This document shows positions 1 through 15,785 of a stretch of DNA of 15,785 nt, piece by piece. This DNA is from Acidobacteriaceae bacterium (GTDB lineage: Bacteria > Acidobacteriota > Terriglobia > Terriglobales > Acidobacteriaceae). A model generated the notes under the pieces. That model made no database searches and was not told the origin of the DNA. It worked only from the letters and a program-made list of their open reading frames with translations. Where the stretch lies: NCBI GenBank assembly GCA_030040115.1, contig JASHUH010000098.1, positions 1 to 15,785 on the forward strand, given 5' to 3'. Each line of letters starts with the position of its first letter. Within the stretch, counting starts at the first letter, position 1. The translations under genes were made by a program, and so were the position numbers.

Positions 1-2316
1 CGCATTCCCATCCTCGAGGCGGAGGGCTTCGAGGCCGACGACGTCATCGGCACGCTGGCTCGCGAGGCTGCGGAGCGCGGGCACGAGGTCTTCATCGTCT
101 CCGGCGACAAGGACATGATGCAATTGGTCACGCCGCAGGTGATGGTTCTTAACCCGCAAAAAGACAACCTGATCCTCGATCCCGCCAAAGTCACAGAAAC
201 GCTCGGCGTACCGCCCGAGAAAGTGATCGACGTGATGGCGCTGCGCGGCGACAGCGTGGACAATATTCCCGGCGCGCCCGGTATCGGCGACAAGGGCAGC
301 GTCGATCTGATCGTCGAGTTCGGCAGCGTGGAGGCGGTTCTTGACCACGCCGCCGAAGTCAAGCGCAAAAGCTACCGCGAATCCCTCCAACAGAATCGCG
401 ACGCTGTCTTGCTCTCGAAGGAGCTGGTCACCATCGACTGCCATGTGCCGCTGGATCTTGATTTAACGTCGCTCGAAACCCAGTCGCCCGATCTCGAAGC
501 CTGCCGCGCGCTGTTTACCGAACTCGAGTTCACTTCGCTGTTGCGCGATCTGGCTCCTGCGGAGGGCGGGCCTTCGGTAGAGATCATTGAAGAGCCGACA
601 ACCGAGCAGCTCGCTGCGTTTGTTCACGTCGCCCGCACCGAGGGATTTGCCTTCGCTCTCGACGCCGCCGAGCCGATCGCATTGGAAACGGAAGAGGAAG
701 CGGAACCACCTGCGGCTCCATTGCTCGATGCCATCGAGGCGGCCGAGCGCAAGACCCGCTCGAGCGTAGGCGTGTGCGCGGAGACAACGCGAGCGCTTTG
801 CCTGCCGCTCACGCAGGAACTGCGCGCGTTGCTCGAAGACCCCAAAATCCCCAAACGCACGCACGACCTGAAGCTCGCCTTGCATGTCCTGCACGGCCTC
901 GGCGTCGCGTTGCGCGGCGCCGTGGACGACCTGATGCTGCTCTCCTACGCGCTGAACCCCACACACGCCACGCAAACACTGGCCGATATTGCCGCCCGCA
1001 ATGGCCAGACGCCGCCGGATTCAATCGCGGCGAAGGCGGCGGCTATTCACGCGCTGGCGCCGGCACTGCACACGGAGGTCGAGAAGGCGGGTCTGGAGCG
1101 CGTCTACCGCGAAATCGACCTGCCTCTGGCGCCGGTGCTCTTCCACATGGAGCGCGCCGGCGTGCGCATCGACACAACCGCGTTGGGCGGACTTTCGGAG
1201 CGATTCAGCGGAGAATTGAACCGCGTGGGCGAGCGCATCTTCGAGCTGTCTGGCCAGCGCTTCAACATCAACTCGCCCAAGCAGCTCGGCGTGGTGCTGT
1301 TTACGCATCTTGGGTTGCAGCCGCCCGCAGTGCGGGGCAAAAGCAAGACCGTTTCCACCGCCCAGGATGTTCTCGAACAGCTTGCCGAAAAGCATGAAGT
1401 TCCGCGCCTGGTGCTCGAATACAGGCATCTGGCCAAGCTCAAGGGCACGTACGTGGATGCTTTGCCGTTGCTGGCTGACGCCGATTCACGCGTCCACACC
1501 AATTTTCAGGCGGCGGCCACGGCCACCGGCCGGCTTTCGTCCATCAACCCGAACCTCCAGAACATTCCTGTGCGGACGGAACTGGGACGCGAGATTCGCG
1601 CGGCGTTTACGGCCGCGCCGGGTACGCGTCTGCTCTCGGCCGACTACTCGCAGATCGAACTGCGCTTGCTGGCGCACTTCTCCGGCGATGCGCTGCTGAC
1701 GCGCGCTTATGCCGAGGGCATCGACATCCACACCCTCACCGCAAGCGAGGTCTTCGGCGTGCCGGCGGAAAACATGGACAAGGAGACGCGCGATCGCGCC
1801 AAGGCGGTCAATTTCGGCATTGTCTATGGCATTTCGGCGTTTGGCCTCGCCGCCCAGCTCGGCATTTCGCAGGCCGAGGCAAAGGCCTACATCGAGCGCT
1901 ATTTCGCTCGCTACCAGGGCGTCAAGGCGTTTATCGAGAGGACGCTGGAGCAGACGCGCAAGGACGGGTTTGTGCGCACGCTGTTCGGGCGAATGCGGCC
2001 GATTCCCGATATCGAGAGCCGCAACCCGAACCAGCGCGGCTTTGCCGAGCGGACGGCCATCAACACGCCGCTGCAGGGCACCGGCGCCGATCTCATCAAG
2101 CTGGCCATGATCGCCCTCGACCGCCAGCTCGCTGAGCGCAAGCTCAAGACGCGCATGGTCTTGCAGGTTCATGACGAATTGCTTTTCGAAGTCCCGGTTG
2201 AGGAAACCGAGGAAGTGGAAACGCTGGTGCGCGACGAAATGGAGGGCGTGGCGAAGCTCAAAGTGCCGCTGGTCGCGGATTTGGCTTTCGGTCCGAACTG
2301 GCGCGATCTGAAGTAA
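1..2316 (+). CDS. polA: DNA polymerase I, 5'-truncated by the window edge
   Basis: Family A DNA polymerase for gap filling, primer removal and repair in the cytoplasm. The reading frame is open from base 1, so the gene starts upstream; 771 residues are visible against about 900 for the family. The first part is the C-terminal half of the 5'-3' exonuclease: SGDKDMMQLV, then the helix-hairpin-helix segment GDSVDNIPGAPGIG (about 249-290). The middle domain corresponds to the 3'-5' exonuclease, but the usual FDTET-type metal-binding motif is replaced by FALDAAEP (about 649-672), so proofreading is probably lost, as in the Taq and Bacillus enzymes. The polymerase domain is intact: motif A DYSQIELR (1641-1664), motif B RDRAKAVNFGIVYG (about 1792-1833) and motif C VHDELL (2167-2184). 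It ends in FGPNWRDLK and TAA. Identification is certain; loss of proofreading is inferred from the missing motif. Confidence 0.97.
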   Translation, partial: RIPILEAEGFEADDVIGTLAREAAERGHEVFIVSGDKDMMQLVTPQVMVLNPQKDNLILDPAKVTETLGVPPEKVIDVMALRGDSVDNIPGAPGIGDKGSVDLIVEFGSVEAVLDHAAEVKRKSYRESLQQNRDAVLLSKELVTIDCHVPLDLDLTSLETQSPDLEACRALFTELEFTSLLRDLAPAEGGPSVEIIEEPTTEQLAAFVHVARTEGFAFALDAAEPIALETEEEAEPPAAPLLDAIEAAERKTRSSVGVCAETTRALCLPLTQELRALLEDPKIPKRTHDLKLALHVLHGLGVALRGAVDDLMLLSYALNPTHATQTLADIAARNGQTPPDSIAAKAAAIHALAPALHTEVEKAGLERVYREIDLPLAPVLFHMERAGVRIDTTALGGLSERFSGELNRVGERIFELSGQRFNINSPKQLGVVLFTHLGLQPPAVRGKSKTVSTAQDVLEQLAEKHEVPRLVLEYRHLAKLKGTYVDALPLLADADSRVHTNFQAAATATGRLSSINPNLQNIPVRTELGREIRAAFTAAPGTRLLSADYSQIELRLLAHFSGDALLTRAYAEGIDIHTLTASEVFGVPAENMDKETRDRAKAVNFGIVYGISAFGLAAQLGISQAEAKAYIERYFARYQGVKAFIERTLEQTRKDGFVRTLFGRMRPIPDIESRNPNQRGFAERTAINTPLQGTGADLIKLAMIALDRQLAERKLKTRMVLQVHDELLFEVPVEETEEVETLVRDEMEGVAKLKVPLVADLAFGPNWRDLK

Positions 2317-2407
2317 TCGGAAAAAGAAAACAGGCTTACAATACGGGTGGGCGACGAAGTCAACGACGCCGGCGACCGCTGGCCCCGCGCGCAGGCAACG
2401 CTTTCTC

Positions 2408-2758
2408 ATGTTGTTCGATCTCGGCAAAGCGCTCTCGTTTTTTTTGAGTATTCTCTCGCTTTGCCCGGTGGTGGTGAACGCGTTTTTTGTCCCGGGGACG
2501 CGTTGGGAAGATCGGCTGGCGCTGTCGCTGGGCAGAATCGTTCTGGCCGCCTGCGTGTGCTTTGCCAGCGGCCTGCTGTTTCTCCGCGACGACAAGTCGG
2601 GGCGCGCGACCGAAGAGGCCCTGATGTCCACGCTCCCGGTGCGCATGTTCTTGTGGACGCTGGCCACAGTGGCGGTTCTTTTCGTGGTTTCCTGGTATCT
2701 CGACGTCAACTACGCGCCGCTGCTGTGGCGGAATCAGCCGCACGAGATCGGCTTCTAG
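2408..2758 (+). CDS. Small three-helix membrane protein of unknown function
   Basis: A 116-residue protein starting at ATG 2408, 91 bases after polA on the same strand. Three hydrophobic segments are visible at residues about 8-28, 37-59 and 80-98, joined by short loops containing TRWEDR and RDDKSGRATEE. The C-terminus (NQPHEIGF) is polar. I recognise no family motif. No strong ribosome site precedes the ATG; an AGG lies about 12 bases away. A TACAAT hexamer at 2337-2342 could be a -10 element for its own promoter, but no convincing -35 goes with it, so read-through from polA is equally possible. A longer + strand frame starting at GTG 2347 overlaps it, but is arginine- and glycine-rich and looks like a shadow. 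The hydrophobic pattern supports a real inner-membrane protein; its role is unknown. Confidence 0.75.
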   Translation: MLFDLGKALSFFLSILSLCPVVVNAFFVPGTRWEDRLALSLGRIVLAACVCFASGLLFLRDDKSGRATEEALMSTLPVRMFLWTLATVAVLFVVSWYLDVNYAPLLWRNQPHEIGF

Positions 2759-2896
2759 AATATTCTCCTTCCGGCGCGCCACTCCTACTGAAGAGAGAAA
2801 ATACCTGCCCGCGCATCTCCCTTTCCCCATTTATCGCATCGCGGCTGGCACCCGGGTTGCGATCGGAAGGTTACGACGTCTTGGGTTTCCGGGGGT

Positions 2897-3706
2897 TCAG
2901 CCTTGTTGTGTTTCGGCCTGGGATGGCGATGGCTCATCGCTGCGTCGGCCGGCGCGGACGGTTTTGGCGGCGCGGGTCGCGCGGATGCGCCAGAGGGCGA
3001 GGCGGGCGGAAAAACGCTCCCCACGTGTAAGCGGCGTGGGAAGAAATGCGGCGAGAACGCGGTCGACGGAGGTGAAGCGCCCGGCGTTGCGGTCGAGAAA
3101 GTCGCACAAGGTGAGGAGGGTGGCCGCGGATGTGGTGTTGGGATGGACGCAGATGGTCCATAGGCCGGAGGGCTTTTCGACCGGCGCCCAAAGCTGCTGG
3201 GGAATCCAGGTGAGGCCGTTGCGGAGGAAGGGACGGCGGGCAAGGCCATCGCAGAGGAGGAGGATTCCTTCGTCGCGAAGGACCTCGAGAGTAGCGGTGT
3301 CGAAGCCGTGTCGGGGAGCAACCCAGAGGCGCGGGTTGAGGCTGTGGCCGCGAAGAAGGTCGAGGCCGTCGCGAATCCAGCCACGCTGCGTGGCGGCAGA
3401 GACACCGGCGAATTCCGATTGCGCATGAAGTGGGAGCAGACTGCGGCCGCGGCTCAGGCAGAGATGGCGATAGCCGTGGAGGGCGATGACGGCGCCGGCG
3501 GTCTCGAAGGCGCGCAGTTGACGCCAGAAACCGGGATCGGGCGGGGAGACGCACAGTTCGGGGTCGCGATTGTCGGGGACGACGGCGAGGATGGGATGGA
3601 GATGGAATTCTTCGATAAGGGCTACGCATTGGCTCCAGCGCTGAGCGGAGACGGTGGGACAAAGGTCGTCGAACCGGAGCAGGTATTGGGCGGGCGTGAG
3701 AGGCAT
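2897..3706 (-). CDS. DUF2334-type polysaccharide deacetylase-like protein
   Basis: A 269-residue protein of the NodB-like/DUF2334 group, which resembles carbohydrate esterase family 4 deacetylases. Expected metal and catalytic positions are present: RFDDLCP near the N-terminus (D13, D14), HGYRH (H77 and H81, the HxxxH pair) and APRHGFD (about 130-136). A late histidine occurs in ICVHPN (H188). No signal peptide is visible, so it probably acts in the cytoplasm or on lipid-linked sugars, unless secreted another way. The last 35 residues are basic and then polar, and likely disordered. ATG 3706 lies 5 bases after the flippase stop codon, with AAGG about 9 bases upstream inside the flippase gene, so translation is probably coupled. 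It is the last gene of the polysaccharide cluster and may trim acetyl groups from the product. The frame stays open far upstream, but that part lies over the flippase gene and is a shadow. Confidence 0.85.
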   Translation of the reverse strand: MPLTPAQYLLRFDDLCPTVSAQRWSQCVALIEEFHLHPILAVVPDNRDPELCVSPPDPGFWRQLRAFETAGAVIALHGYRHLCLSRGRSLLPLHAQSEFAGVSAATQRGWIRDGLDLLRGHSLNPRLWVAPRHGFDTATLEVLRDEGILLLCDGLARRPFLRNGLTWIPQQLWAPVEKPSGLWTICVHPNTTSAATLLTLCDFLDRNAGRFTSVDRVLAAFLPTPLTRGERFSARLALWRIRATRAAKTVRAGRRSDEPSPSQAETQQG

Positions 3707-3711
3707 CGCGG

Positions 3712-5178
3712 TCAGCCTTGAACCAGAGGAATTGGGGTGCATGGAGCGCCCGCCGAGGCTTGCCCATCGCGGGCAATAGCATCGGCGAGAAGGTGATGGC
3801 TCCAGTACCAGAGGAACAGGAAGGTGGCCACCATCCAGAGCGACGTGGCGAGGGCGATTCCCGCCACCCCATAGATGCGCATGAGGACCAGGTTCAGGAT
3901 CACGTCGAGGGCGAGATTGATGGCGCCGCAGTAGAAGATGAGATCGGTGCGGCGCATGGCCACGATGAAGCGATAGAAGACGCGGCTGACCACGAAAAAG
4001 GGAATTTGGATGGCGAACATGGCCAGGACACGGGCGACGATGAAGGTGTCGCGCGGCCCAAATGCGCCGTGCTGAAAGATGATGCGGACAAGCGAGGGTG
4101 CGCCGGCGATGAGCAGGACGGCGACGGGCGCGGAGACCAGCGCGGTGAGGCGAACCCAGGTGCGGAGGGTGTGGCGGCAGGCAGCCCAGTCGCGATACGC
4201 AATGAGGCGCGATAAGTAGGGCACAATGGCGGTGGAGATGGCGCCTGCGAGCAGGGTGAGAACGACGGTGATAAAGCGGTTGGCGTAGACGAGAGCGGAG
4301 ACGCTGCCCGAGGGCAGCATAGCGGCCATGGCCTGATCGACGAGCAGACCGCCAGAGGCCACGACGCCGCTGAGCAGGACCGGGCCGTACTGGCGGCCCA
4401 CTTCGCGCGTGGCGTCGGTCATTCCATACCAGCGCAAGCGAAAATGGTAGCCGTGGGCATGCATCATGGCGACCACGAGGGCGGCGTAGATCAGTGTGCC
4501 GGCGACGGTGGCGAAAACCATGGCCCAGATTCCAAAGCGATGGCCGAGGGTGAGCGCACCGAGAATGATGGAGGCGGAGATGACCATGGGCGCGAGCGCG
4601 GGAAGGGCGAAGCGGTCGACGGTGTTGAGGACGGCGGCGCAGTTGACGGCGACGCCGGTAATGAGCACGATGGGTAGTAAACCATAAAAGAGGCGGATGG
4701 AGAGCGCCAGCTTGGCGGCGGGAAAATGCGACGCGATGAGCGGGAAGAAGACGGGCGCGGTGAGCGCCATGACGGCTGAGGCGGCGAGGAGGAGCAGGCA
4801 CATCCAGAGCAGTGAACTGGAAAGAAGTTGCTGGGCGCGCTCTCGGCCCTCCTGCTCGCGGATGCGGACGAGGGTCGGGATGAGCGCCTGGTTCATCGAC
4901 TCGGAGATGAGATTGACGAGTAGGCTGGGGACGAGGGTGGCGGCCAGGAACGCGTCCATGGCGTCGGAACGGCCGTAGATCCCGGCGACGGCGATTTCTT
5001 TGCCGGTGGCGGCGAGCTTGACGGCGACGCCGACTGCGCCCACGGAGAGGGCCGCGCGCAGAATGCTGCGGTTGACGCTGGAGCGGAGCGCGAGTGAGGC
5101 GGGTTGGGCGGTGGCGGTCATCGCGATGGCGTTTTCCCCGGGGCTCTGGACATTAAGTGAATTATTCAGCAGTTTCAT
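3712..5178 (-). CDS. MurJ/MviN-family lipid-linked glycan flippase
   Basis: Polytopic membrane protein of 488 residues from ATG 5178, close to the 510-530 usual for MurJ. It belongs to the MOP exporter superfamily that flips undecaprenyl-linked sugars across the inner membrane. Signature segments include GKEIAVAGIYGRSDAMDAFL (residues 59-78) and ISESMNQALIPTLVRIRE (91-108), the MviN pattern DAFxxAxxxPxxLxxxxxE. About a dozen or more hydrophobic helices follow. It lies third in the polysaccharide cluster, so its substrate may be the polysaccharide repeat unit instead of peptidoglycan lipid II; sequence alone cannot separate the two. The frame is open up to 5346, but that would overlap the preceding gene by 61 bases and add an arginine-rich non-MurJ stretch. 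ATG 5178 (GAGG only 2 bases away) and ATG 5121 are the candidate starts; I prefer 5178. Confidence 0.9.
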   Translation of the reverse strand: MKLLNNSLNVQSPGENAIAMTATAQPASLALRSSVNRSILRAALSVGAVGVAVKLAATGKEIAVAGIYGRSDAMDAFLAATLVPSLLVNLISESMNQALIPTLVRIREQEGRERAQQLLSSSLLWMCLLLLAASAVMALTAPVFFPLIASHFPAAKLALSIRLFYGLLPIVLITGVAVNCAAVLNTVDRFALPALAPMVISASIILGALTLGHRFGIWAMVFATVAGTLIYAALVVAMMHAHGYHFRLRWYGMTDATREVGRQYGPVLLSGVVASGGLLVDQAMAAMLPSGSVSALVYANRFITVVLTLLAGAISTAIVPYLSRLIAYRDWAACRHTLRTWVRLTALVSAPVAVLLIAGAPSLVRIIFQHGAFGPRDTFIVARVLAMFAIQIPFFVVSRVFYRFIVAMRRTDLIFYCGAINLALDVILNLVLMRIYGVAGIALATSLWMVATFLFLWYWSHHLLADAIARDGQASAGAPCTPIPLVQG

Positions 5179-5285
5179 TCCCTCGGTGGCTTCTATGAGA
5201 CGGCTAGAACCCGGCCAATTTTTGCGCCTCTTCGGCTCGGCTAAAGGCGCGCCCTTCCAAAACCTCGAATTCTCCGCGGTGTTTT

Positions 5286-6506
5286 TCAGTCCGCGGCTTG
5301 AGGCGCGGGCGCAAGTGCCGGGCCTGCGTATGGCGCGTCGAAGCATGCCGCAAGTTCGATTGGCTGATCTTCATTGAGGCGGGCGGCGAGGGCAACGAGG
5401 GCCATCAGCAGCCAGGTGGTGCGGCTTTCTTCCACGGTCGCGACGAGCGAGGTCACCAGCCAGACCAGCAGCGAGACCACCAGGGCCAAACGCAGCGCGC
5501 TTATCATCTTGCAAGCGAGATAGGCGGCCAGGGTGACGATGGCTGCGGCCAGGAAAAGCGCGCAGAGGCCGCCGCCGACCAGGATGGAAAGGCCAGTATT
5601 GTGCGCGGTGTCGATGGGCGCGGTTCCAGCGGCGCGTACAAACGTGCCCGCGCCCGAGCCGATGAATGGAGCATGGAGAAAGGCCCGCCAACCCGCGGAC
5701 CAGATGTTGAGGCGCTGATTAAGGCCGCCCCCGCGAAGCTGCTCGGGGATGGTGGCCAGGCGGGCGAAGGTGGCGGAGGGAATCGCGAACCAGAGGCCGG
5801 CGGCAATAGCCGGGGAAGCAAAGAGTACGGCGAGGACGGCTTTGGCGTGACCGCGGACAAGGACCGCGGCGCAACCGGCAAGCGCCACCACGGCAGCGAC
5901 GAACCCACCGCGGGATGCAGTGAGAAGAACGGCGACCAGGCCGAGAGGCAGATAGCCCACGGCGAGCAGGCGCTGGAGCCAACCTGACCCGCTATCGAGG
6001 AGCAGCGCGGCGAGAGGAAAACCGAGATCGAGAAAACGGGCGACGTCGTTGGGGTCCTGGCCGTAAGCGGCGAAGCGAACCTGACCGGCAGCAACGGCTT
6101 CAGGGGAGCTGAAGTTGGCGACCGTCAGTGCGGCGAGCACCCAGGAGCCGGCGATGTAAGCGCGCAGAAGGGTCCGTAGATCGCGCGGAGTTTCCGCGAA
6201 CTCCCACACCAGCCAGACCACCATCATTTCCTGGAAATAGGCGCGGATTCGATAAAAAGTCTCCGCCGGATCGATGGTCCAGAAACCAGTGCAGCAGAAC
6301 CAGAGATAAAAGACCAATACCAGCCATTGAAGGGGTCCAGGCGAGCGCAGGCGGCCAGCCTGCAGGACGGCGGGAACGGCGGCCAGAAGCAAGACCAGGC
6401 CCACAATGCGCGCCACATTGCCGAAAGGCGGTCCAAGGTCGAGCGAGTACTCCCAGGGAACCGCGAAGGCGAAGGCGACGAGGAGGGTCCAGGCGAGGCT
6501 GCGCAT
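5286..6506 (-). CDS. O-antigen ligase / Wzy-type polymerase family protein
   Basis: A 406-residue inner-membrane protein with about ten to twelve hydrophobic helices and a large periplasmic loop typical of the Wzy_C/WaaL family, which polymerises lipid-linked repeat units or transfers glycan to an acceptor. The family region RLNIWSAGWRAFLHAPFIGS followed by AHNTGLSILVGGG (residues about 265-313) contains the conserved H-N pair and the G-S-G turn. TASRGG (196-201) and DPNDVAR (151-157) are also typical. ATG 6506 is chosen because AGAGG sits 10 bases upstream and the gap to the previous stop is only 4 bases; a frame extending to 6557 would overlap that gene. The C-terminus is short and proline/alanine-rich. 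Being next to export and flippase genes and far from lipid A genes, polymerase is more likely than ligase. The 107-base gap to the next gene holds no clear promoter. Confidence 0.88.
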   Translation of the reverse strand: MRSLAWTLLVAFAFAVPWEYSLDLGPPFGNVARIVGLVLLLAAVPAVLQAGRLRSPGPLQWLVLVFYLWFCCTGFWTIDPAETFYRIRAYFQEMMVVWLVWEFAETPRDLRTLLRAYIAGSWVLAALTVANFSSPEAVAAGQVRFAAYGQDPNDVARFLDLGFPLAALLLDSGSGWLQRLLAVGYLPLGLVAVLLTASRGGFVAAVVALAGCAAVLVRGHAKAVLAVLFASPAIAAGLWFAIPSATFARLATIPEQLRGGGLNQRLNIWSAGWRAFLHAPFIGSGAGTFVRAAGTAPIDTAHNTGLSILVGGGLCALFLAAAIVTLAAYLACKMISALRLALVVSLLVWLVTSLVATVEESRTTWLLMALVALAARLNEDQPIELAACFDAPYAGPALAPAPQAAD

Positions 6507-6510
6507 CGGC

Positions 6511-9042
6511 TTAATACCTCTGCGAATACACGAGGCCCGAGTAGATGGAAACGCCAATGGTGGATTGGATGGCCGATTCCAGGGTGCGGTTCAACAGGTT
6601 CTTGGTCATGGAATCGGGCAGGTAGAGAATGTCGCGATCGTGGATGGGCTGGTCGGGATCCTGGCCGCGCAACATGCGGCGCAGGTTGAGCGCGGTGAGG
6701 GTGCGTCCGCCTTTCTGCTCGCGAATGAGGATGGCTTTGCCGAGAGCGGCGTTCTGCGAAGGGCCCCAGGCGAGGGAAAGCGCCTGGACCACGGTGAGCC
6801 CCTGAACCGGGTCGACGGGAAACCCGCCGGGGCGGACAACATCGCCGACGACATAGACGAGGCCGGCGCGGCTCACCTGGACTGTGTCGCCAGGGCTGAG
6901 CTCGGGATTGTGATCGGAAGTGACGTCGGTTCCGCTGGGATCGAGAACGACGGGATGCGCGGTTTTGGGATCGTTGACGTGGAAGATATTGACGAGGCGT
7001 CCGGCGTTCGGTGAAAGACCCGAAGCGGCGGAGATAAGATCGAGCAGCCGGTGATGGTAGGTGTAGGGATAGACGCCCGGCCGGGCCACTTCTCCCAGGA
7101 CGCTCACCTCCTGGCCTGCGTAGACCGTCACCAGAACGGAAACCAGCGGATGGAGCAGCATGCCTTTAGCCAGAAGTTGCTCCTCGATGGCGTGAGCGGC
7201 GGCGAGTTCGTCCAGACCGGCAATGCTGATTGGACCGATCAGGGGCAGGGTGACGGTCCCCTCGGGCGACACCCGAACCTCGGAGTGAAACTCGGGGGTG
7301 TGAGACTCGCCGATGTCGAGGAAGTCTCCGGGGCCGATGGGCGCGGGCATGGGCGAGCCGGCCCGCGCGACTCCAGGCGGCAGGCCAGCGGGGCTTGCTC
7401 CAGCGGGCGCATCCCAGACTGCCGGCGCTTCCTTGGGGTTGGGCAGGCTTTTGGTTTCCTGCGTCTGCGGAAAGGTGGCGACGCCGGTAGGCAGGCCCGA
7501 GGTGCTGGGCGTGGGCGCCTGCGCGTGCGTCAGCGAACCGGCCGCAAGCGCGGCCAGCAACAGTATTACGATACGGCTTTCCGGGCGATCCATCGATTCG
7601 GCCACGAGCGCGCCTCCCACTGCCAGCCAGAGTCCGGCAAAAAAGGTGATGGCAAGATAAAGCGGCGGATTGGGCGCGATGGGCTTGACCGGAGGGCGTG
7701 CATCGTCCACCACCGAGATGTCGGAGCTGTGAACGCCGGCGGCGAGGCCGGCTTCTTCGACTTTCTCGAGCAGGCGCAGGTAGAGCGCGTGGGCGGCTTC
7801 GGACTCTTCGCGCATAGCCATGTATTGCGTGGAGGCCTGATTCAGCTTCAAACCTTCGCCAGTGGTTTCCTCCAGGCTTTGGCGCACCATTTGCTCGCGT
7901 TCGAGCGCGGTTTGCCAGTTGCTCTTGAACTGGGCCAGGAGTTTGGCGTCTTCAGTCTGTTTTTGCCGGTCGAGATCGCGTAACTGGCGGCCAATCTCAA
8001 CCACGCGGGGAAAATCGGGTCCGTGCTCGGCGCTCAACTGGGCCTGCTCTTGTTCAAGGTCGCTGCGGTGCGCGCGAATCTGCTCGAGAAGCGCCGACGC
8101 AAAGTTGCCGCCTTGCGCCTGAAGGCGGGGATCGGAGGCAATCACAGCTTCCGGGTCACCCTGGGAGGCGGCCCGGTATTCGGCTTCAGAGAGAATGCGG
8201 TCGGCGGTGGCGGCGACGAGTTGCCGGCCCAACTCGTCGATCTCCAAGCCCGTGGAGTTGTGTTCGGCATCGCCGGGCTGGCCATTGGCCAGAGTTTGCG
8301 GAGTGCTGATGATGCCGTGGGCGTTCGCGAAATCGGCGAGACGCTGGTCGTCGCGATCGACCTGCCTTTTCAGCGCCTGGAGTTGGTTCTGGACCCAGCC
8401 GGAGGCTTGCGTGGTGGCCTGGACCTCGGATTCGGCATCCTGCTCGATGTAAGCGCGGATGAGGGCGTTGACCACGGCTGCGGATAGGGCCCGATCACGG
8501 GAGCGAAAGCGGACCTGAATAAGCAGGGTGCGGGGCATGGTTTCCACGTCGAGACGGCGGGAGAAGCGTTCCAGGAGCCATGCTTGCGCAATGGGATCTG
8601 GAGCGCTCGGAAGAAATCCAGGAAATCGGCGGGCAAAACTGCCTCGAAAGCCAGGCGCCTGGTAAAGCTTGAGGCCGGTAATAACGCGCCAAGCCAGATG
8701 ATCGCTGCGCAGCACCCCGGCAAGGGTTTCGAGGGCGACCGGCGCGGAGAGGATGGAGGCGGAGACCAGCGGTTCGGCCGCCTCGAGGCTCAGCGACGAC
8801 GCCGGCCCGGTGCGCAGTTCGATTTTGCCGGCAGCCTCGTATTGATTGGGAGCGAAGAGGCAGTACAGGAGGCAAACCAGCAGAAGACCGCCCTCGATGA
8901 GAGCCACCAGTTGCCGGCGGCGCCGAAGAATCTGCCACAGCTCGCGCAGTGAGACCGAGGGATCGACGCGGCGTACCTCGCCCGAGGCCAGCGATTCAAG
9001 CTCGCCTGGGGAGACCTGCTCAACCGGGGCGCCGTCAGGCAA
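6511..9042 (-). CDS. Wzz/GumC-type polysaccharide co-polymerase fused to Wza-type export protein
   Basis: An uninterrupted 843-residue ORF carrying two normally separate proteins. Residues about 30-480 are a polysaccharide co-polymerase: Wzz start SLRELWQILRRRR, first helix 44-63, long coiled-coil periplasmic part (about 200-430), then DDARPPVKPIAPNPP and second helix 459-480. There is no C-terminal tyrosine kinase. Residues 484-508 then form a signal-peptide-like segment (MDRPESR, a hydrophobic run, SLTHA before QA) without a lipobox cysteine. Residues about 566-640 are the Poly_export domain (IGPGDFLDI, VRVSPEGTVTLPLIG), followed by two SLBB domains (about 643-690, with VLGEVARPGVYPY, and 727-785, with VVGDVVRPGGF). 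The end is an amphipathic helix finishing in Tyr, as expected for the outer-membrane ring. The only available start is TTG 9042, with GAGG 10 bases upstream and an in-frame TGA behind it. It could be one polyprotein or two overlapping genes. First gene of the cluster. Confidence 0.9.
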   Translation of the reverse strand: MPDGAPVEQVSPGELESLASGEVRRVDPSVSLRELWQILRRRRQLVALIEGGLLLVCLLYCLFAPNQYEAAGKIELRTGPASSLSLEAAEPLVSASILSAPVALETLAGVLRSDHLAWRVITGLKLYQAPGFRGSFARRFPGFLPSAPDPIAQAWLLERFSRRLDVETMPRTLLIQVRFRSRDRALSAAVVNALIRAYIEQDAESEVQATTQASGWVQNQLQALKRQVDRDDQRLADFANAHGIISTPQTLANGQPGDAEHNSTGLEIDELGRQLVAATADRILSEAEYRAASQGDPEAVIASDPRLQAQGGNFASALLEQIRAHRSDLEQEQAQLSAEHGPDFPRVVEIGRQLRDLDRQKQTEDAKLLAQFKSNWQTALEREQMVRQSLEETTGEGLKLNQASTQYMAMREESEAAHALYLRLLEKVEEAGLAAGVHSSDISVVDDARPPVKPIAPNPPLYLAITFFAGLWLAVGGALVAESMDRPESRIVILLLAALAAGSLTHAQAPTPSTSGLPTGVATFPQTQETKSLPNPKEAPAVWDAPAGASPAGLPPGVARAGSPMPAPIGPGDFLDIGESHTPEFHSEVRVSPEGTVTLPLIGPISIAGLDELAAAHAIEEQLLAKGMLLHPLVSVLVTVYAGQEVSVLGEVARPGVYPYTYHHRLLDLISAASGLSPNAGRLVNIFHVNDPKTAHPVVLDPSGTDVTSDHNPELSPGDTVQVSRAGLVYVVGDVVRPGGFPVDPVQGLTVVQALSLAWGPSQNAALGKAILIREQKGGRTLTALNLRRMLRGQDPDQPIHDRDILYLPDSMTKNLLNRTLESAIQSTIGVSIYSGLVYSQRY
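7603..7618 (-). promoter_or_regulatory. Possible internal ribosome site and GTG start for a separate Wza-type protein
   Basis: On the minus strand GGGAGG (7613-7618) is followed after 7 bases by GTG (7605-7603), in frame, at residue 480 of the long ORF. Starting here would give a 364-residue Wza precursor beginning M-A-E-S-M-D-R-P-E-S-R and then a classical signal peptide. The purine run also encodes the glycines of the preceding helix, so it may be there by chance. Confidence 0.4.
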
Positions 9043-9079
9043 AACCTGAAAACCTCGGATTCAGAAGTCGCGCGGCGCC

Positions 9080-9103
9080 GCCGTTCGACACGCTGCGAAC
9101 GGC
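9080..9103 (-). promoter_or_regulatory. Perfect hairpin in the leader of the polysaccharide cluster
   Basis: GCCGTTCG (9080-9087) and CGAACGGC (9096-9103) form an 8-bp perfect stem with an 8-base loop. It lies 37 bases upstream of the TTG start of the fusion gene, between that start and the dyad at 9151. No T-run follows on the minus strand, so it does not look like a simple terminator. It may be a leader RNA structure affecting translation or stability, or a DNA operator. Confidence 0.45.
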
Positions 9104-9150
9104 CGCAGGCCGGGCACACCCAGTCTGAGGGATCGGGGAAGCCATTGTTA

Positions 9151-9164
9151 GTGAGCTACATCAC
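9151..9164. promoter_or_regulatory. CRP/FNR-family-like dyad upstream of the polysaccharide cluster
   Basis: GTGA-N6-TCAC, the core of the CRP consensus TGTGA-N6-TCACA. Read on the minus strand it is GTGATGTAGCTCACT, close to the lac-operon CRP site (GTGAGTTAGCTCACT). It is centred about 115 bases upstream of the TTG start at 9042. The same dyad with the same spacing occurs twice before the cytochrome gene. Binding by a CRP/FNR-family protein is inferred. Confidence 0.5.
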
Positions 9165-9522
9165 GCAATGCAGGGAAATGGAAAGGCGGCCCGGACTGGC
9201 GGAAGGGAAATGAACCGGCGTGCCGCGCCGCACCGCCCTACGCCGCTGCCGCGCCGGATGTGTTTCCCGCCTTTGCCGACGAAATGCCGTCATCGCGACG
9301 AAATCTCGGCAGCGCGACTCGCTCACCTTCGCCACATCTCGCGATTTTGGGGAAGGTGCGCCGGCTGTAAATCCTTCATTCGTCAGTTTTGCAGGAAATC
9401 CAACGGGACCTAGGACTATTTGGCGCCCGAAGTGCTTGAGGTAAGGTGTCCTGCGAATCTGCGCGACGGTCGGCACGGTCCATACAGGACGAAATCAAAC
9501 CCTTTACTCTGAGGTGCGACAC

Positions 9523-9717
9523 ATGGCCAGTCATCCCGTTTCGAGCTTTCCGCTTCTAGCTAGCGATCAGGCTGATGTGATCCGAATCTACCTTGAACTG
9601 ATGCATGAACGGGACCGTTCGGGGAACCCTTCGGAAGTTACAGAGGATCAGCCCCTCGGTCCGCCCAAAGGCTCCGATTACTCGTGGTTTCCGGGCCAAA
9701 CATTCGATTACGAGTAG
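9523..9717 (+). CDS. Small acidic protein of unknown function, 64 residues
   Basis: ATG 9523 is preceded by GAGG with an 8-base gap, a good Shine-Dalgarno. A GTG three codons earlier (9514) overlaps that GAGG and is less likely. The product is soluble-looking and acidic, with an amphipathic stretch DQADVIRIYLELMHERDRSG followed by an acidic, proline-rich tail ending WFPGQTFDYE. No signal peptide, cysteine or known motif is seen. It is the only + strand ORF with a good ribosome site between the polysaccharide cluster and the outer-membrane protein gene, and a second small ORF follows 8 bases later. I do not recognise it; homologues in related genomes would decide whether it is real. Confidence 0.45.
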   Translation: MASHPVSSFPLLASDQADVIRIYLELMHERDRSGNPSEVTEDQPLGPPKGSDYSWFPGQTFDYE

Positions 9718-9725
9718 CCCTGAGG

Positions 9726-9959
9726 ATGGCGCCGCGCATTTCCCGGCTGGATGCCGGTATGAAACCAAGGGCTGAAGGAGCAGGTCAGCCGTCGATCGCC
9801 AACGTAAGTCACACAGTGTCGTCCGATGAGCCCTTACAGAGAAACCGGGCTGAGTTTGTAGGGGAAATCCTTTCATTATCGGCAAAACTTCTCTCAGACT
9901 GCTATGTGCAAAACACCCTCGACAATGTGCAAAATATGTTGATAACGCGGGTGAAATGA
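9726..9959 (+). CDS. Possible small protein, 77 residues, with a C-terminal helix
   Basis: The ORF begins at ATG 9726, 8 bases after the previous stop codon, with GAGG directly against the ATG, so initiation would have to be coupled or weak. The N-terminal half is basic and low in structure. Residues from about 42 look like a continuous amphipathic helix (EFVGEILSLSAKLLSDCYV). Near the end a seven-residue spacing is seen, VQNTLDN-VQNML, encoded by two copies of ATGTGCAAAA spaced 21 bases apart (9904-9913, 9925-9934). Base composition is lower in GC than the neighbouring genes. It may be a real short gene, a decayed remnant, or non-coding DNA with direct repeats. Confidence 0.3.
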   Translation: MAPRISRLDAGMKPRAEGAGQPSIANVSHTVSSDEPLQRNRAEFVGEILSLSAKLLSDCYVQNTLDNVQNMLITRVK

Positions 9960-10036
9960 CGCGAAAGATGTAGATATCTCTCGAACCTTATACCAGAGCA
10001 ACTAACGCTGGAGCCGTTCCAACGAAACGATGATCG

Positions 10037-10080
10037 CCTGATGAGTTATGAGCCTTTTTGACTACCTGACGAGTGATGAG
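10037..10080 (+). repeat. Imperfect 16-base direct repeat, two copies
   Basis: CCTGATGAGTTATGAG (10037-10052) and CCTGACGAGTGATGAG (10065-10080) agree at 14 of 16 positions, with starts 28 bases apart. Function unknown; it could be part of a structured RNA or a decayed duplication. Confidence 0.55.
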
Positions 10081-10125
10081 TGTCTTTAGGCGCCCGATGC
10101 CGGGTTCCCACGGAGAAAAGAGAGT

Positions 10126-10155
10126 CCCCAGGAAGCGGCCTTTTGCTTCCCGGGG
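10126..10155 (-). terminator. Hairpin, probable terminator of the outer-membrane protein gene
   Basis: CCCCAGGAAGC (10126-10136) pairs with GCTTCCCGGGG (10145-10155) with one mismatch and an 8-base loop. On the minus strand it is followed by ACTCTCTTTTCT, a moderately T-rich tail. It lies 86 bases downstream of the stop codon at 10242. On the + strand no T-run follows, so termination is likely only for minus-strand transcripts. Confidence 0.5.
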
Positions 10156-10241
10156 ATAAGTCTTAATCGCTGGGCGAAGCTATCGATCTTGAGTTACCTG
10201 GCGAACCAGAACGGACAAGTACGAGTTATGCCGTTCGGCGC

Positions 10242-10895
10242 CTAAAAACGAAAAGTCGGCCCAAACGCGATGCGCAGGTTGTTGTAGGCGCCGTTGTTCC
10301 AATAGATTTCGTCGCCTGCATCCACGCGCAAGCCGATCGGCCCCCAGAACCCTTCAATGCCGCCGCCCGGGTAAACGGCAAAATGCGTGCTCGATCCACC
10401 AAAATTATTCAGGCTGTTGCTAAAGCACGATCCTGAGCCAGCCGGCGCATTGCAACTGGTGCTAAAGTCCATGAAGCCGGCTTTGGCGTCGATAAACGCG
10501 CGGAACGCACTCGAGGCGCCGAATTGGAATTTCGGGCCAAACAGGCCGGAAATAGGACGCACCTTGGCGGTGTAAGTGGTTGAGCTTGCACTGCCGCTTC
10601 CGACGCTACCTGCGCCGCTCACGGTGACATTCGTGTAGTTCTGCTCGAAGTCGTAGCTCATCTCGCCTTCCAAGGCAACGTATCTGCCCGTGTTGAAAGC
10701 GACGCGCGCGCCGAAGCCCAGGAAGTTGCTCGCGCTGGCTCCTTTCGGCGAGATCCGGAACATATCGCCGTAGGCGCCTATTTCGCCGTGATCGTATGTG
10801 TTTTCAGACGGGACTTGAGGTGCGGCTTGAGCGGCAAGACAAACAGGTACAGCAAGCAATAGCACTAATCCCGCACTTAGAAGTAAACGCCTCAT
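10242..10895 (-). CDS. Outer-membrane beta-barrel protein, OmpA/OMP_b-brl-like
   Basis: A 217-residue secreted protein. Residues 1-21 are a signal peptide (MRRLLLSAGLVLLLAVPVCLA). The mature part shows alternating hydrophobic and polar strands, such as FGARVAFNTGRYVALEGEMSYDF and YTAKVRPISGLFGPKFQFG, with glycine turns and serine-rich loops. It ends in RIAFGPTFRF, a C-terminal phenylalanine typical of the BAM recognition signal. Two cysteines in one loop (TSCNAPAGSGSCFS) could form a disulphide. The size fits an eight-stranded barrel. ATG 10895 has GGAG 8 bases upstream, a good ribosome site. It stands alone on its strand, divergent from the cytochrome gene, with its own probable terminator. 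The family is clear; the specific role is not (structural, adhesive or small-solute porin are possible). Confidence 0.85.
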   Translation of the reverse strand: MRRLLLSAGLVLLLAVPVCLAAQAAPQVPSENTYDHGEIGAYGDMFRISPKGASASNFLGFGARVAFNTGRYVALEGEMSYDFEQNYTNVTVSGAGSVGSGSASSTTYTAKVRPISGLFGPKFQFGASSAFRAFIDAKAGFMDFSTSCNAPAGSGSCFSNSLNNFGGSSTHFAVYPGGGIEGFWGPIGLRVDAGDEIYWNNGAYNNLRIAFGPTFRF

Positions 10896-11068
10896 TTGGA
10901 ACGCTCCATGAAAGAATTTCTTTCAAGCAAACGACGGCCCGCGAACTCGCGATACCTATCAAGGTTCGCTCCGTGACTAAGATGCCGCCGCACTGTGGCA
11001 GGTTGACTTTACCCGGGGGGTTGTGCGGCATCCGATTTGTTTCGGTGAATGTGACTTTCGCAGCGCGC

Positions 11069-11094
11069 TTCGCGGCTAGATTTCGCGGCTAGAT
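11069..11094 (+). repeat. Perfect 13-base tandem duplication
   Basis: TTCGCGGCTAGAT occurs twice head to tail with no gap (11069-11081 and 11082-11094). It may be a slippage duplication or a pair of regulator half-sites in the divergent promoter region. Confidence 0.7.
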
Positions 11095-11182
11095 CGAGAG
11101 GCTTGGGATTCTCCCATGTCTGCCTCTCAGGCAACCTTTTCAGAGATAGCTAAAATTGCCGATGGCAATGCGCGACTGCTTG

Positions 11183-11222
11183 TTTGTGACCCGAATCACT
11201 GCTTTGTGACCCGAGTCACTGC
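11183..11222 (+). promoter_or_regulatory. Two tandem CRP/FNR-like dyads before the cytochrome gene
   Basis: Two copies of a 20-base unit (11183-11202 and 11203-11222) differ at one base. Each contains TGTGA-N6-TCAC, nearly the full CRP consensus. The half-sites GTGA, TCAC, GTGA, TCAC start at 11186, 11196, 11206 and 11216, exactly 10 bases apart, so all face the same side of the helix. The dyad centres are 42.5 and 62.5 bases before the GTG start of the cytochrome. The repeat is seen directly; the regulator is inferred. Confidence 0.6.
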
Positions 11223-11254
11223 GAGGAAATCCGCTCCGGGCTTCTCCTCAAAAC

Positions 11255-13237
11255 GTGGACTCCGCTCGTAGATGGTTCATCGGTGCGTTTGTTTTTGTTC
11301 TTCTTTTCTGGGCCTCCAACGCAGTGATCGCGCAGAAGCTCAAAGATTCCGATTGCCTGACCTGCCACTCCGACGTGACGCTGACGGGTCAGGACGCCAG
11401 CGGCAAAACCATCAATTTGTATGTAAATGCGGATAAGCTCAAGCATTCCGTCCACGGCGCGATGTTCACCTGCATCGATTGCCACAAGGATGTGAAGAGC
11501 CTTGCGCACGCCGCGCCGCCCGAAAAAATCTCTTGCGCCGCCTGCCACGCCGACGCTCAGCAAGCCTACGCGCACAGCATGCACGCGCAGGCAAGTAAGA
11601 CGGGCAAAAATCCTGCCGCCACGTGTCAGGACTGCCACGGCGATGCGCACCAGGTTCTCGCCGCGGCCGATCCGCAATCGCCGGTAAGTCACACCAGGAT
11701 TCCGGCTACGTGCGGCCGCTGCCATGGCCAGAGATTTCTGATGGAGTCGAACGGGGTCAGCGCGCAGCCCTTCATCTCTTATCAGAACAGCGTGCACGGC
11801 CGCGCCGTCGCCAACGGCTCGGAGCAGGCCGCCGTCTGCACCGATTGCCACGCCGCGCATGCCATCTTACCGGCCAATAATCCCAGTTCGCCCATCTCCC
11901 GGCCCAACGTCGCGGCCACCTGTGGCAAGTGCCATACAGTCATCGAGATGACCTTCAAGCAGAGCATCCACGGCCAGGCCATTGCGCAGGGTAACCAGCT
12001 TGCCCCCACCTGCACGGATTGCCACGGCATTCACACCATCAAGTCACCCATCAATCCCAATTCGCCAGTCGCCGCGCAGAATCTTTCCCGCGACGTCTGC
12101 GCCCGCTGCCACGAAGGCGTGCGCCTCTCGCAGGAATTCGGCGTGCCCGGCAATCGCGTCGCCACCTATTTCGACAGCTATCACGGTCTGGCCTCCGAAG
12201 GTGGATCGCTGGTGGTCGCCAATTGTTCGAGCTGTCACGGCGTGCACAACATCCTTCCCTCCAGCGATCCCCGCTCCACCATCAGCCCCGCCAATCTCGA
12301 CGCCACCTGCGGTAAGTGCCATCAAGGAGTCACTCGTCAATTCACTCTGACTCCGGTGCACCTCGGAGATGGTCAGTACCCCAAAGCCATCGGCTCCATT
12401 GCGGTGCGCTGGGTGCGCCGCATTTATATCGTTCTTATCCTGCTCGTCATCGGCCTCATGTTCCTGCACAATGCCGTCATCTGGCGCAGCAAGGCCGTGG
12501 CGCGCCGCCAGATGCAAAACCCCTACATGACTCGCATGACCGCGAATCAGCGTTGGCAGCACCTGATTCTGCTTGCCAGCTTCATCGTTCTCGTCCTTAC
12601 CGGCTTTGCGCTTAAGTTTCCCGACACTTGGTTCGCCCACGCGTTGGGCATGGGCGAGAACCTCCGCGGCGTCATCCATCGCGTCGCCGGCGTCATCCTC
12701 ATCGGCGCCGGCGTGTATCACCTCTTTTATTTAGCCGCGTTGAAGGAAGGCCGGCGCCTCATTCGCGATCTTGCGCCGCAACCGAAAGACGCCTTCGATA
12801 CGTGGGGCGCGATGCGCTATTACCTTGGCCTGAGCCGCCAAAAACCGCAATTCGGGCGCTTCAGTTATGCCGAGAAGGCTGAATACTGGGCGCTCGTATG
12901 GGGCACCGCCCTCATGGGGCTTACCGGCATCATGATGTGGGCGAAAGTCTGGGTTGGCGACTTGCTGGCGCGCTGGTGGGTCGATGTGGCCACCGCGATC
13001 CACTTCTACGAAGCCATCCTCGCCACGCTGGCCATTGTGGTCTGGCACTTCTACCAGGTCATCTTCGATCCCGATGTCTATCCCATGAATTGGGCATGGT
13101 GGGACGGCAAAATGCCCGTCGAGCATTATCGCCTTGAGCACGCCCTGGACGCTTCCTCGCTCGATCAAGAGGATGAATCGGCAAATGCCCGGCAAACCGC
13201 CGGCGTCGGTCCCGTCCAGGAGTCGGCGGGCAAATAG
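11255..13237 (+). CDS. CbcL-like multiheme cytochrome c fused to a b-type cytochrome
   Basis: A 660-residue predicted quinol:cytochrome oxidoreductase of the inner membrane. Residues 1-27 are a signal sequence (WFIGAFVFVLLFWASNAVIA). Eleven CXXCH sites follow, with first cysteines at 34, 73, 94, 124, 153, 195, 223, 253, 282, 324 and 352, and possible distal ligands in SVHG, SMHA, SIHG and SYHG. Five hydrophobic helices (about 389-409, 436-454, 473-495, 545-565 and 580-603) form a FdnI/HydC-type cytochrome b, with histidines H436, H475, H489, H583 and H598 as haem-ligand candidates, then the family tail DPDVYPMNWAWWDGKMPVEH. This order, periplasmic multihaem part then b-type membrane part, is that of Geobacter CbcL. 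The tail after about 630 is acidic and disordered. The start is GTG 11255, the only usable one after an in-frame TGA at 11207; no Shine-Dalgarno is near. It converges on recG with a 32-base gap. The electron partners are unknown. Confidence 0.92.
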   Translation: MDSARRWFIGAFVFVLLFWASNAVIAQKLKDSDCLTCHSDVTLTGQDASGKTINLYVNADKLKHSVHGAMFTCIDCHKDVKSLAHAAPPEKISCAACHADAQQAYAHSMHAQASKTGKNPAATCQDCHGDAHQVLAAADPQSPVSHTRIPATCGRCHGQRFLMESNGVSAQPFISYQNSVHGRAVANGSEQAAVCTDCHAAHAILPANNPSSPISRPNVAATCGKCHTVIEMTFKQSIHGQAIAQGNQLAPTCTDCHGIHTIKSPINPNSPVAAQNLSRDVCARCHEGVRLSQEFGVPGNRVATYFDSYHGLASEGGSLVVANCSSCHGVHNILPSSDPRSTISPANLDATCGKCHQGVTRQFTLTPVHLGDGQYPKAIGSIAVRWVRRIYIVLILLVIGLMFLHNAVIWRSKAVARRQMQNPYMTRMTANQRWQHLILLASFIVLVLTGFALKFPDTWFAHALGMGENLRGVIHRVAGVILIGAGVYHLFYLAALKEGRRLIRDLAPQPKDAFDTWGAMRYYLGLSRQKPQFGRFSYAEKAEYWALVWGTALMGLTGIMMWAKVWVGDLLARWWVDVATAIHFYEAILATLAIVVWHFYQVIFDPDVYPMNWAWWDGKMPVEHYRLEHALDASSLDQEDESANARQTAGVGPVQESAGK

Positions 13238-13269
13238 CCGCGGGTATTTCGGGATCGGCAGGATCAGCA

Positions 13270-15576: not shown

Positions 15577-15785
15577 ACAAGGATGCTAATGCATTTTGAA
15601 CGATCCATCGGTGAATGGATTTTCGGAGTCGCTCGACATCCAAACCCATGCGGTCCGGCTCGACGCCCGGTGCAAAGCCGCAATCAAAAGCCGTAACTCC
15701 TTTGTTCTACGCACCATGCTTACTTTTCTCGGATATTTCCAGCGCATTTCGACCTGCAAATTTCCGAGGGCGAAGGAGTCTGGCG

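Follow-up and report, generated by a model that had tools for sequence, protein, structure and literature searches.

A co-polymerase and an exporter in one reading frame

The DNA considered here (hereafter the window) is a stretch of 15,785 nucleotides from an Acidobacteriaceae bacterium (assembly GCA_030040115.1, contig JASHUH010000098.1, positions 1 to 15,785). On its minus strand it carries one open reading frame (ORF) of 843 codons (6511..9042), stop-free from a TTG start at 9042 down to the stop codon at 6513-6511, in which a kinase-less polysaccharide co-polymerase (PCP) of the Wzz/GNVR kind is joined to a complete outer-membrane polysaccharide exporter (OPX). A preliminary description of the window had proposed such a frame, a co-polymerase followed by a Poly_export/SLBB exporter, without naming its strand, and the ORF itself, the Pfam matches and the relatives all confirm it. 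The gene is single-copy in its own genome, and its start position is shared, 57 of 68 sequences having a TTG, GTG or ATG within one residue of residue 1. Both parts belong to known families.

In the first half, a putative Wzz region (residues 30-121; 8680..8955, minus strand) includes helix 1 at about residues 46-63. It is suggested by hydropathy and by a Pfam score of 22.3 bits, just below the cut-off of 25.5, and PF02706 (Wzz) is among the precomputed domains of many relatives. The GNVR region (residues 407-480; 7603..7824, minus strand; 38.4 bits, cut-off 27.7) contains most of helix 2, and a GNVR domain adjoining helix 2 is a feature of PCPs. The C-terminal BY-kinase (bacterial tyrosine kinase) domain of a PCP-2a protein (Wzc type) is lacking, and an exporter takes its place on the chain. 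The second half has the composition of an OPX protein of the Wza family, a Poly_export domain (residues 569-638; 7129..7338, minus strand; 52.4 bits, cut-off 28) followed by SLBB_2 (residues 644-723) and SLBB (residues 729-780) domains that both score above their cut-offs (together 6703..7113, minus strand). The outer-membrane helix Wza_C (PF18412) is absent from the Pfam matches up to E = 1, among which weak matches were possibly filtered.

The NCBIfam scores are all far under their curated cut-offs: 121.5 bits to TIGR01005 and 117.9 bits to EpsF (TIGR03017; cut-off 422.75) for the first half, and 117.6 bits to EpsE (TIGR03028; cut-off 262.65) for the second. When the profile of alignment A2 was searched against the PDB, Wza (2j58) aligned to positions 542-764 and Wzc (7nhr) to positions 308-457. 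A simple hydropathy scan, read from the sequence, gives the strongest hydrophobic stretches at about residues 46-63, 461-481 and 491-504 and flags weaker ones near residue 100 and at 630-641; by hydropathy only, the PCP half has two strong hydrophobic segments and the weaker one near 100.

Distribution and integrity of the fused frame

Twenty-eight relatives with 53-90% identity align with the window protein over almost its full length. A search of 60 genomes matched through the junction, without a stop and at 53-90% identity, in 31 of the 36 same-genus genomes (the window's own included), one of which (G010) lacks the front of the PCP; in other families the two halves were matched only separately, among the matches listed. 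The preliminary description had proposed a search for the same fusion in related genomes, and this was borne out: across the genus (the Occallatibacter/Terracidiphilus group) one frame extends across the junction as far as the C-terminus in 57 of 80 genomes, three of these frames beginning inside the PCP, and the remainder comprises 6 genomes with pieces only and 17 without a match at 1e-100. In 298 genomes sampled evenly across the order, single-frame matches to both halves were found, among the matches listed, only in the window's genus and in a second genus group, g30, which holds Acidicapsa. Within g30 the frame is single in 12 of the 13 matching genomes, and in the thirteenth the two parts lie on two contigs. 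A draw of 396 genomes across the phylum, evidently without any matching g30 genome, gave four matches at 1e-100, all in the window's genus. The fused frame is common to two genus groups; absences were called on draft genomes and are hence not sure.

A pattern scan of a named collection, which reaches near relatives only, matched 146 stretches, 77 of which encode a relative, giving 76 loci that are titled as Acidobacteriota or as members of the phylum; the carriers include Occallatibacter savannae, Terracidiphilus gabretensis, strain AB60 and Acidicapsa dinghuensis. Both halves are in one frame at 67 of the 76 loci. Three others (L103, L106 and L108) are contig-end fragments beginning downstream of the junction, and five (L068, L069, L091, L098 and L104) are broken elsewhere and open across codons 480-508, the two breaks in L098 falling near residues 215 and 536, outside those codons and without an N. 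A stop codon or frameshift between the two parts in relatives, named in the preliminary description as what would overturn the fusion, was looked for, and the frame is uninterrupted across the junction at 72 of the 73 named loci spanning it. The exception, L099, would pass for a gene split at the junction (break at codons 495-501), but its assembly has NN there and we did not count it as unfused. Between the start of helix 2 and the cut site described below lie 45 to 56 residues, depending on the relative, so that insertions and deletions occur here yet preserve the frame.

The window does come from a draft genome of 649 contigs, and one relative has an N gap at the very junction, which could raise the suspicion that the join is a sequencing or assembly error. 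However, independent genomes carry the same join, among them the named strains L078, L095, L096 and L105 and the one-contig genome G002, and we regard an error as already refuted and the fusion as virtually certain to be genuine.

The junction and the predicted cut site

Helix 2 (residues 461-481; 7600..7662, minus strand; hydropathy and alignment) is the last part of the PCP, and where it ends the unfused relatives have a linker to their kinase part. Directly behind it, and overlapping its last residues, hydropathy and alignment place a putative exporter signal peptide (residues 480-507, with a core at about 491-504; 7522..7605, minus strand), which could also be read from an internal start. 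Signal peptidase I is predicted by the -3/-1 rule to cut behind Ala507, leaving Gln508 (7519..7521, minus strand) as residue 1 of the mature exporter. The third, signal-peptide-like helix after helix 2 and the cut after residue 507 had both been proposed from the window alone, and the comparison supports the two of them. By rule, the -3/-1 pattern is present behind residue 507 in 65 of 68 sequences, whereas shifted neighbouring positions satisfy it in only 0 to 52, and the residue at +1 is Gln in 68 of 68. No Cys was found at +1 to +3 in the 68 sequences, which argues that the cut is no lipoprotein site. Conservation is far higher just behind the cut (QAPTPSTSGLPTG) than in the helix ahead of it, which drifts.

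Several observations weigh against cleavage of a membrane hairpin. The cut-site exceptions are a Pro at -1 in one sequence and a Met at -3 in two, and the loop before the third helix has a net charge of 0 or below in 36 of 68 sequences; with so little positive charge ahead of it, a hairpin topology cannot be taken as certain. Cleavage of internal signal sequences does not always occur, and the same weakly charged loop could fit a protein that stays uncut with three helices, its exporter domain tethered to the inner membrane as part of a permanently joined channel. Such tethering would secure contact between parts that must meet. It is nevertheless hard to reconcile with a cut-site pattern and an invariant Gln that persist despite the drifting helix, and the candidate internal start, where present, would yield an untethered exporter anyway. 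We consider an uncut chain unlikely, and hold that signal peptidase quite probably cuts the fusion chain.

The invariant Gln at +1 recalls the Q-rule that part of PMC5837995 describes for signal-peptidase-I substrates of Bacteroidetes and reports as not typical of related phyla; Acidobacteria might follow a similar rule.

A candidate internal start within helix 2

Codon comparisons and duplex energy point to a second signal, one that the preliminary description had not anticipated, within the codons of helix 2. A GGAGG at codons Gly476-Gly477 (7613..7617, minus strand) is a candidate internal Shine-Dalgarno site, and the in-frame GTG at codon 480 (7603..7605, minus strand) is a candidate start of the exporter, with a duplex energy of -9.5 against -5.4 at the gene's own start. 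The GGAGG stands seven bases ahead of codon 480 in many genes, and it is paired with an in-frame ATG, GTG or TTG at codon 480 or 481 in 33 of the 68 genes, that of the window among them. When synonymous codons were shuffled 200 times within the genes, 5.7 ± 2.1 pairs resulted (maximum 11), and elsewhere along the gene the top count of GGAGG with a start is 6. In a set thinned to less than 80% DNA identity the pair is present in 24 of 56 genes, compared with 4.4 ± 1.8 in shuffles. Site and start are retained beyond what the protein demands, as would be expected of a gene with an internal start.

The choice of codons is equally marked. Of the 53 Gly columns, Gly476 has the largest share of GGA (42 of 58 genes; the next reaches 43%), while GGA makes up 18% of all Gly codons in the fusion gene family. 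Where Gly476 precedes Gly477 it is GGA in 33 of 42 cases. Background ORFs from these loci use GGA at the first position of Gly-Gly in 227 of 1513 cases, and in 15 of 55 within hydrophobic stretches. Shine-Dalgarno-like pausing near membrane segments has been proposed, and since hydrophobic stretches are somewhat richer in GGA than Gly-Gly in general, the GGAGG could serve to slow the ribosome for membrane insertion of helices 2 and 3 and not as a start. Pausing, however, requires no start codon, yet one is present at codon 480 or 481 in all 33 GGAGG genes (15 of the 35 others). Moreover, where codon 481 is not a start, Leu480 is written TTG in 7 of 7 genes with GGAGG and in 3 of 16 lacking it; among GGAGG genes that do have a start at 481, Leu480 is CTG in six and TTG in three. 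We therefore give pausing little credence.

The internal site, taking the better of codons 480 and 481, has a mean anti-Shine-Dalgarno energy of -7.7 (48 genes), compared with -6.2 at the genes' own starts (57 genes) and -2.35 at other in-frame start codons (3205). The folding of the mRNA falls below that of codon resamples by 3.43 ± 0.56 in the 33 genes with the pair and by 1.06 ± 0.54 in the 35 without it. In the alignment, Gly-Gly at 476-477 is found in 0 of 12 unfused PCPs, suggesting that the site belongs to the fused family. On the tree, where both deep branches contain GGAGG, 13 changes are needed for the site and 13 for the start, and when they change together it is always in the same direction, 4.7 times on average with 0 opposite changes.

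On the other hand, not all of the evidence favours a start here. The sign test of the co-changes is borderline (median p 0.06), the pair is lacking in 35 of the 68 genes, and among four fresh genomes it is present in one. Of two soil isolates that carry the gene, Occallatibacter savannae (L078) is without GGAGG and Terracidiphilus (Occallatibacter) gabretensis (L096) has it. Among 121 Leu columns, Leu480 comes third in its use of TTG (15 of 36), which alone is not exceptional, base-pairing over the GGAGG itself is the same as in resamples, and weaker 4-base sites score higher at residues 647-649 (47 of 68) than at the junction (36). We rejected residues 647-649 as an internal start, as they lie inside the exporter domain with no sensible start there. 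On the whole, we consider it likely that the internal start is used in the species with GGAGG.

This raises the question of whether the exporter could come mainly from the internal start, the full-length chain being minor or merely tolerated and its cleavage unimportant. In its favour, anti-Shine-Dalgarno pairing is stronger at the internal site than at the start of the gene itself, where TTG predominates (40 of 57); ATG is commoner among the internal starts (22 of 48). However, nearly all of the loci that cover the junction keep the frame open, although one stop codon between the two parts would be the easiest way to separate them. Several genes also lack the GGAGG and start, and for L043, L075, L080, L107 and L109 no start codon is listed from about -45 to -13 relative to the cut site, so that there the exporter could come only from the long chain. 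An exporter made chiefly from the internal start appears improbable, although slightly less so than either pausing or an uncut chain. Since nearly all loci that cover the junction keep the frame and about half the genes have the GGAGG start, we take the polyprotein to be the probable basic product and the internal start an addition to it.

Origin of the fusion

In the tree of the PCP half (15 fused and 12 unfused rows) the fused rows form one side of a branch, 15 of 15, with a support of 100/100. We relied on this tree, since that of the exporter half is distorted by the fragment rows L002 and L118, with branch lengths near 10, and places the fragment L002 within the fused group. In the small PCP alignment, for which the 12 unfused rows were used, the fused rows L059 and L100 are misaligned at the junction. 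The unfused stretches were hand-picked, six of them for a close PCP-then-OPX order, and show existence, not frequency. In 7 of these 12 stretches from the same bacterial family (e.g. L147-L152) a PCP and an OPX follow each other in that order, with ORFs overlapping stop-to-stop.

The unfused PCP frame has about 700-780 codons, with the exporter in a separate frame. Fused and unfused PCPs align until the end of helix 2 ('ESL/ESI'), after which the unfused proteins continue into the kinase linker and the fused ones into the exporter signal peptide. From its length, its place and what is usual in the family, the part behind helix 2 in the unfused PCPs is presumably a tyrosine kinase; two such parts gave no match in the 76 named loci by tblastn. 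The fusion most likely arose once, from a PCP-then-OPX pair, by loss of the intervening kinase part. Against this stands the OPX-then-PCP order, which is also present in the family (G214; G003, G021 and G058) and leaves an origin from a PCP-OPX pair as one possibility.

In ten same-genus genomes without the full fusion we searched for the Wzy protein of the cluster and found none in nine, the tenth (G208) having a 29% match that adjoins a separate exporter-then-PCP pair. Within the genus the cluster seems to have been lost as a block rather than split, absence in drafts not being sure. In the genome G215 (L117 6853-8454), the first about 240 residues of the fusion run stop-free into what by eye resembles a glycosyltransferase remnant, and this stretch looks like a decayed or rearranged cluster.

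The polysaccharide gene cluster

Three recurrent genes, all on the minus strand, lie downstream of the fusion. The first, by Pfam, encodes a Wzy-like polymerase/O-antigen ligase (PF04932; 5286..6557), whose likely ATG at 6506-6504 comes directly after the fusion stop. It is followed by a gene for a MurJ-like flippase, probably Wzx (Pfam; 3712..5346), and by one for a DUF2334 protein resembling polysaccharide deacetylases (2897..3706, its start trimmed within a frame of 2897-4801), a relative of which matches Polysacc_deac_1 with 23.6 bits, just over the cut-off of 23.1. Relatives of the three are present at 74, 57 and 58 of the 76 loci respectively, counts that include loci cut by contig ends. 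Other recurrent neighbours, their families named from one representative each, are at 67 loci an NAD-dependent epimerase (42), a UDP-sugar dehydrogenase (27) and group-1 glycosyltransferases (46). Judged by Pfam family and gene order only, the cluster is a predicted Wzx/Wzy-type polysaccharide system. Part of PMC12935467 describes Occallatibacter strains and T. gabretensis as capsulated, which fits a role in export and proves nothing about the fusion gene.

The spacing and flanks of the cluster vary. In L046, L048, L092 and L101 the wzy match starts about 0.6 to 1.1 kb past the fusion match, most relatives having the two abutting, and at six loci (L092 included) a family of minus-strand ORFs, possibly an antisense shadow, lies about the gap between fusion and wzy. 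The cluster adjoins a cytochrome gene and recG in the window and in L035, while in many relatives an epimerase and a UDP-sugar dehydrogenase stand upstream; apparently the polysaccharide cluster has moved, or its flank has been exchanged. The cytochrome gene of the window (11255-13237, plus strand) is a 660-codon frame with multiheme cytochrome c repeats and a cytochrome b561-type domain (PF14522, PF09699, PF01292), adjoining recG. Finally, positions 10242-10895 (minus strand) encode a 217-residue protein with a signal-peptide-like start that appears beta-barrel-like by eye and has no Pfam match; as it is matched in only 1 of the 76 loci, it is not an evident partner of the exporter.

Proposed mechanism and comparison with known systems

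The arrangement of helices and domains suggests how the chain could be handled. It would enter the inner membrane via helix 1 and place the coiled-coil co-polymerase domain in the periplasm, helix 2 would return it, and the internal signal peptide right behind helix 2 would send it out again. Signal peptidase I would then cut behind residue 507 and free the exporter, with its Poly_export and two SLBB domains, to form the outer part of the channel atop the co-polymerase ring, both possibly as octamers. In many species, that of the window included, ribosomes would also start at codon 480 or 481 behind the GGAGG and make a free exporter precursor with its own signal peptide, and two start sites on one frame would set the ratio of PCP to exporter. 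On balance we favour the whole of this reading, a polyprotein that is cleaved and in many species supplemented by an internal start, working in a Wzx/Wzy-type exopolysaccharide system, over its rivals, with less assurance than we attach to the cut or the internal start taken singly.

The preliminary description had expected the polyprotein to give 1:1 synthesis of both rings of the channel. While the shared fusion, the third helix and the cut site it put forward stand up to the comparison, this part does not as stated: the strong Shine-Dalgarno site with an in-frame start inside helix 2 of about half of the genes would add free exporter and raise it over the co-polymerase, so that a strict 1:1 output is unlikely. 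It is speculation that the surplus exporter may help the outer ring or serve complexes with two exporters, as part of PMC12881504 reports for E. coli.

The closest functional likeness is to the E. coli Wzc-Wza pair (PCP-2a and OPX), in which the same two parts meet in the periplasm, Wza and Wzc standing octamer on octamer according to passages of PMC12881504. Unlike that pair, the frame described here is single, its PCP is kinase-less, and no Wza_C helix was found. In domain content the exporter half resembles the class 3 OPX proteins, which are given in part of PMC9603273 as having Poly_export and SLBB domains only, but it is fused to a PCP, and no conserved beta-barrel neighbour was recognised among neighbours that were classified in part. 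The parts of PMC12881504 and PMC12220298 available to us present PCP and OPX as separate proteins of two membranes and kinase cycles as governing the assembly of the PCP with its partner.

EpsF and EpsE, which give some of the best NCBIfam scores of the two halves, are likewise separate proteins. The unfused pairs of the family (L147-L152) have the same order, overlapping ORFs and the same domain types as the fusion, but their PCP continues past helix 2 and their exporter has its own frame. A single frame with an internal signal peptide that yields two mature membrane proteins is known from the cytochrome b/c1 precursor FbcH of Bradyrhizobium japonicum, which works alike; the proteins are unrelated and we claim no membership. 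The genes infB and cheA have in-frame internal starts and give two products per frame, and SpaO is likewise an example of an internal in-frame start; here, unlike in those cases, the shorter protein would carry a signal peptide of its own and act as a distinct part in the outer membrane. Databases already contain the fused frame, some JGI names giving both functions on one protein, and we found no description of a PCP-OPX fusion or of its internal start in open-access (PMC) titles, abstract openings and passages.

More tentatively, and at somewhat less than even confidence, we propose that one frame encodes both channel rings and sets their ratio itself, through a cut polyprotein and surplus exporter, that the join replaced the regulatory kinase, and that co-synthesis or transient tethering may substitute for kinase-driven assembly. 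A natural kinase-less fusion that probably has a cut site and a second start makes the ratio and assembly of the two rings directly testable and offers a ready-joined PCP-OPX construct for structural work. If the proposed reading is true, this would be a rare case of a polyprotein in bacteria, with a signal peptide inside the chain and an internal ribosome site that could be read from codon choice over many species, and some soil Acidobacteria may use a single gene to produce two components of the export channel, usually encoded by two genes, and to keep them in balance.

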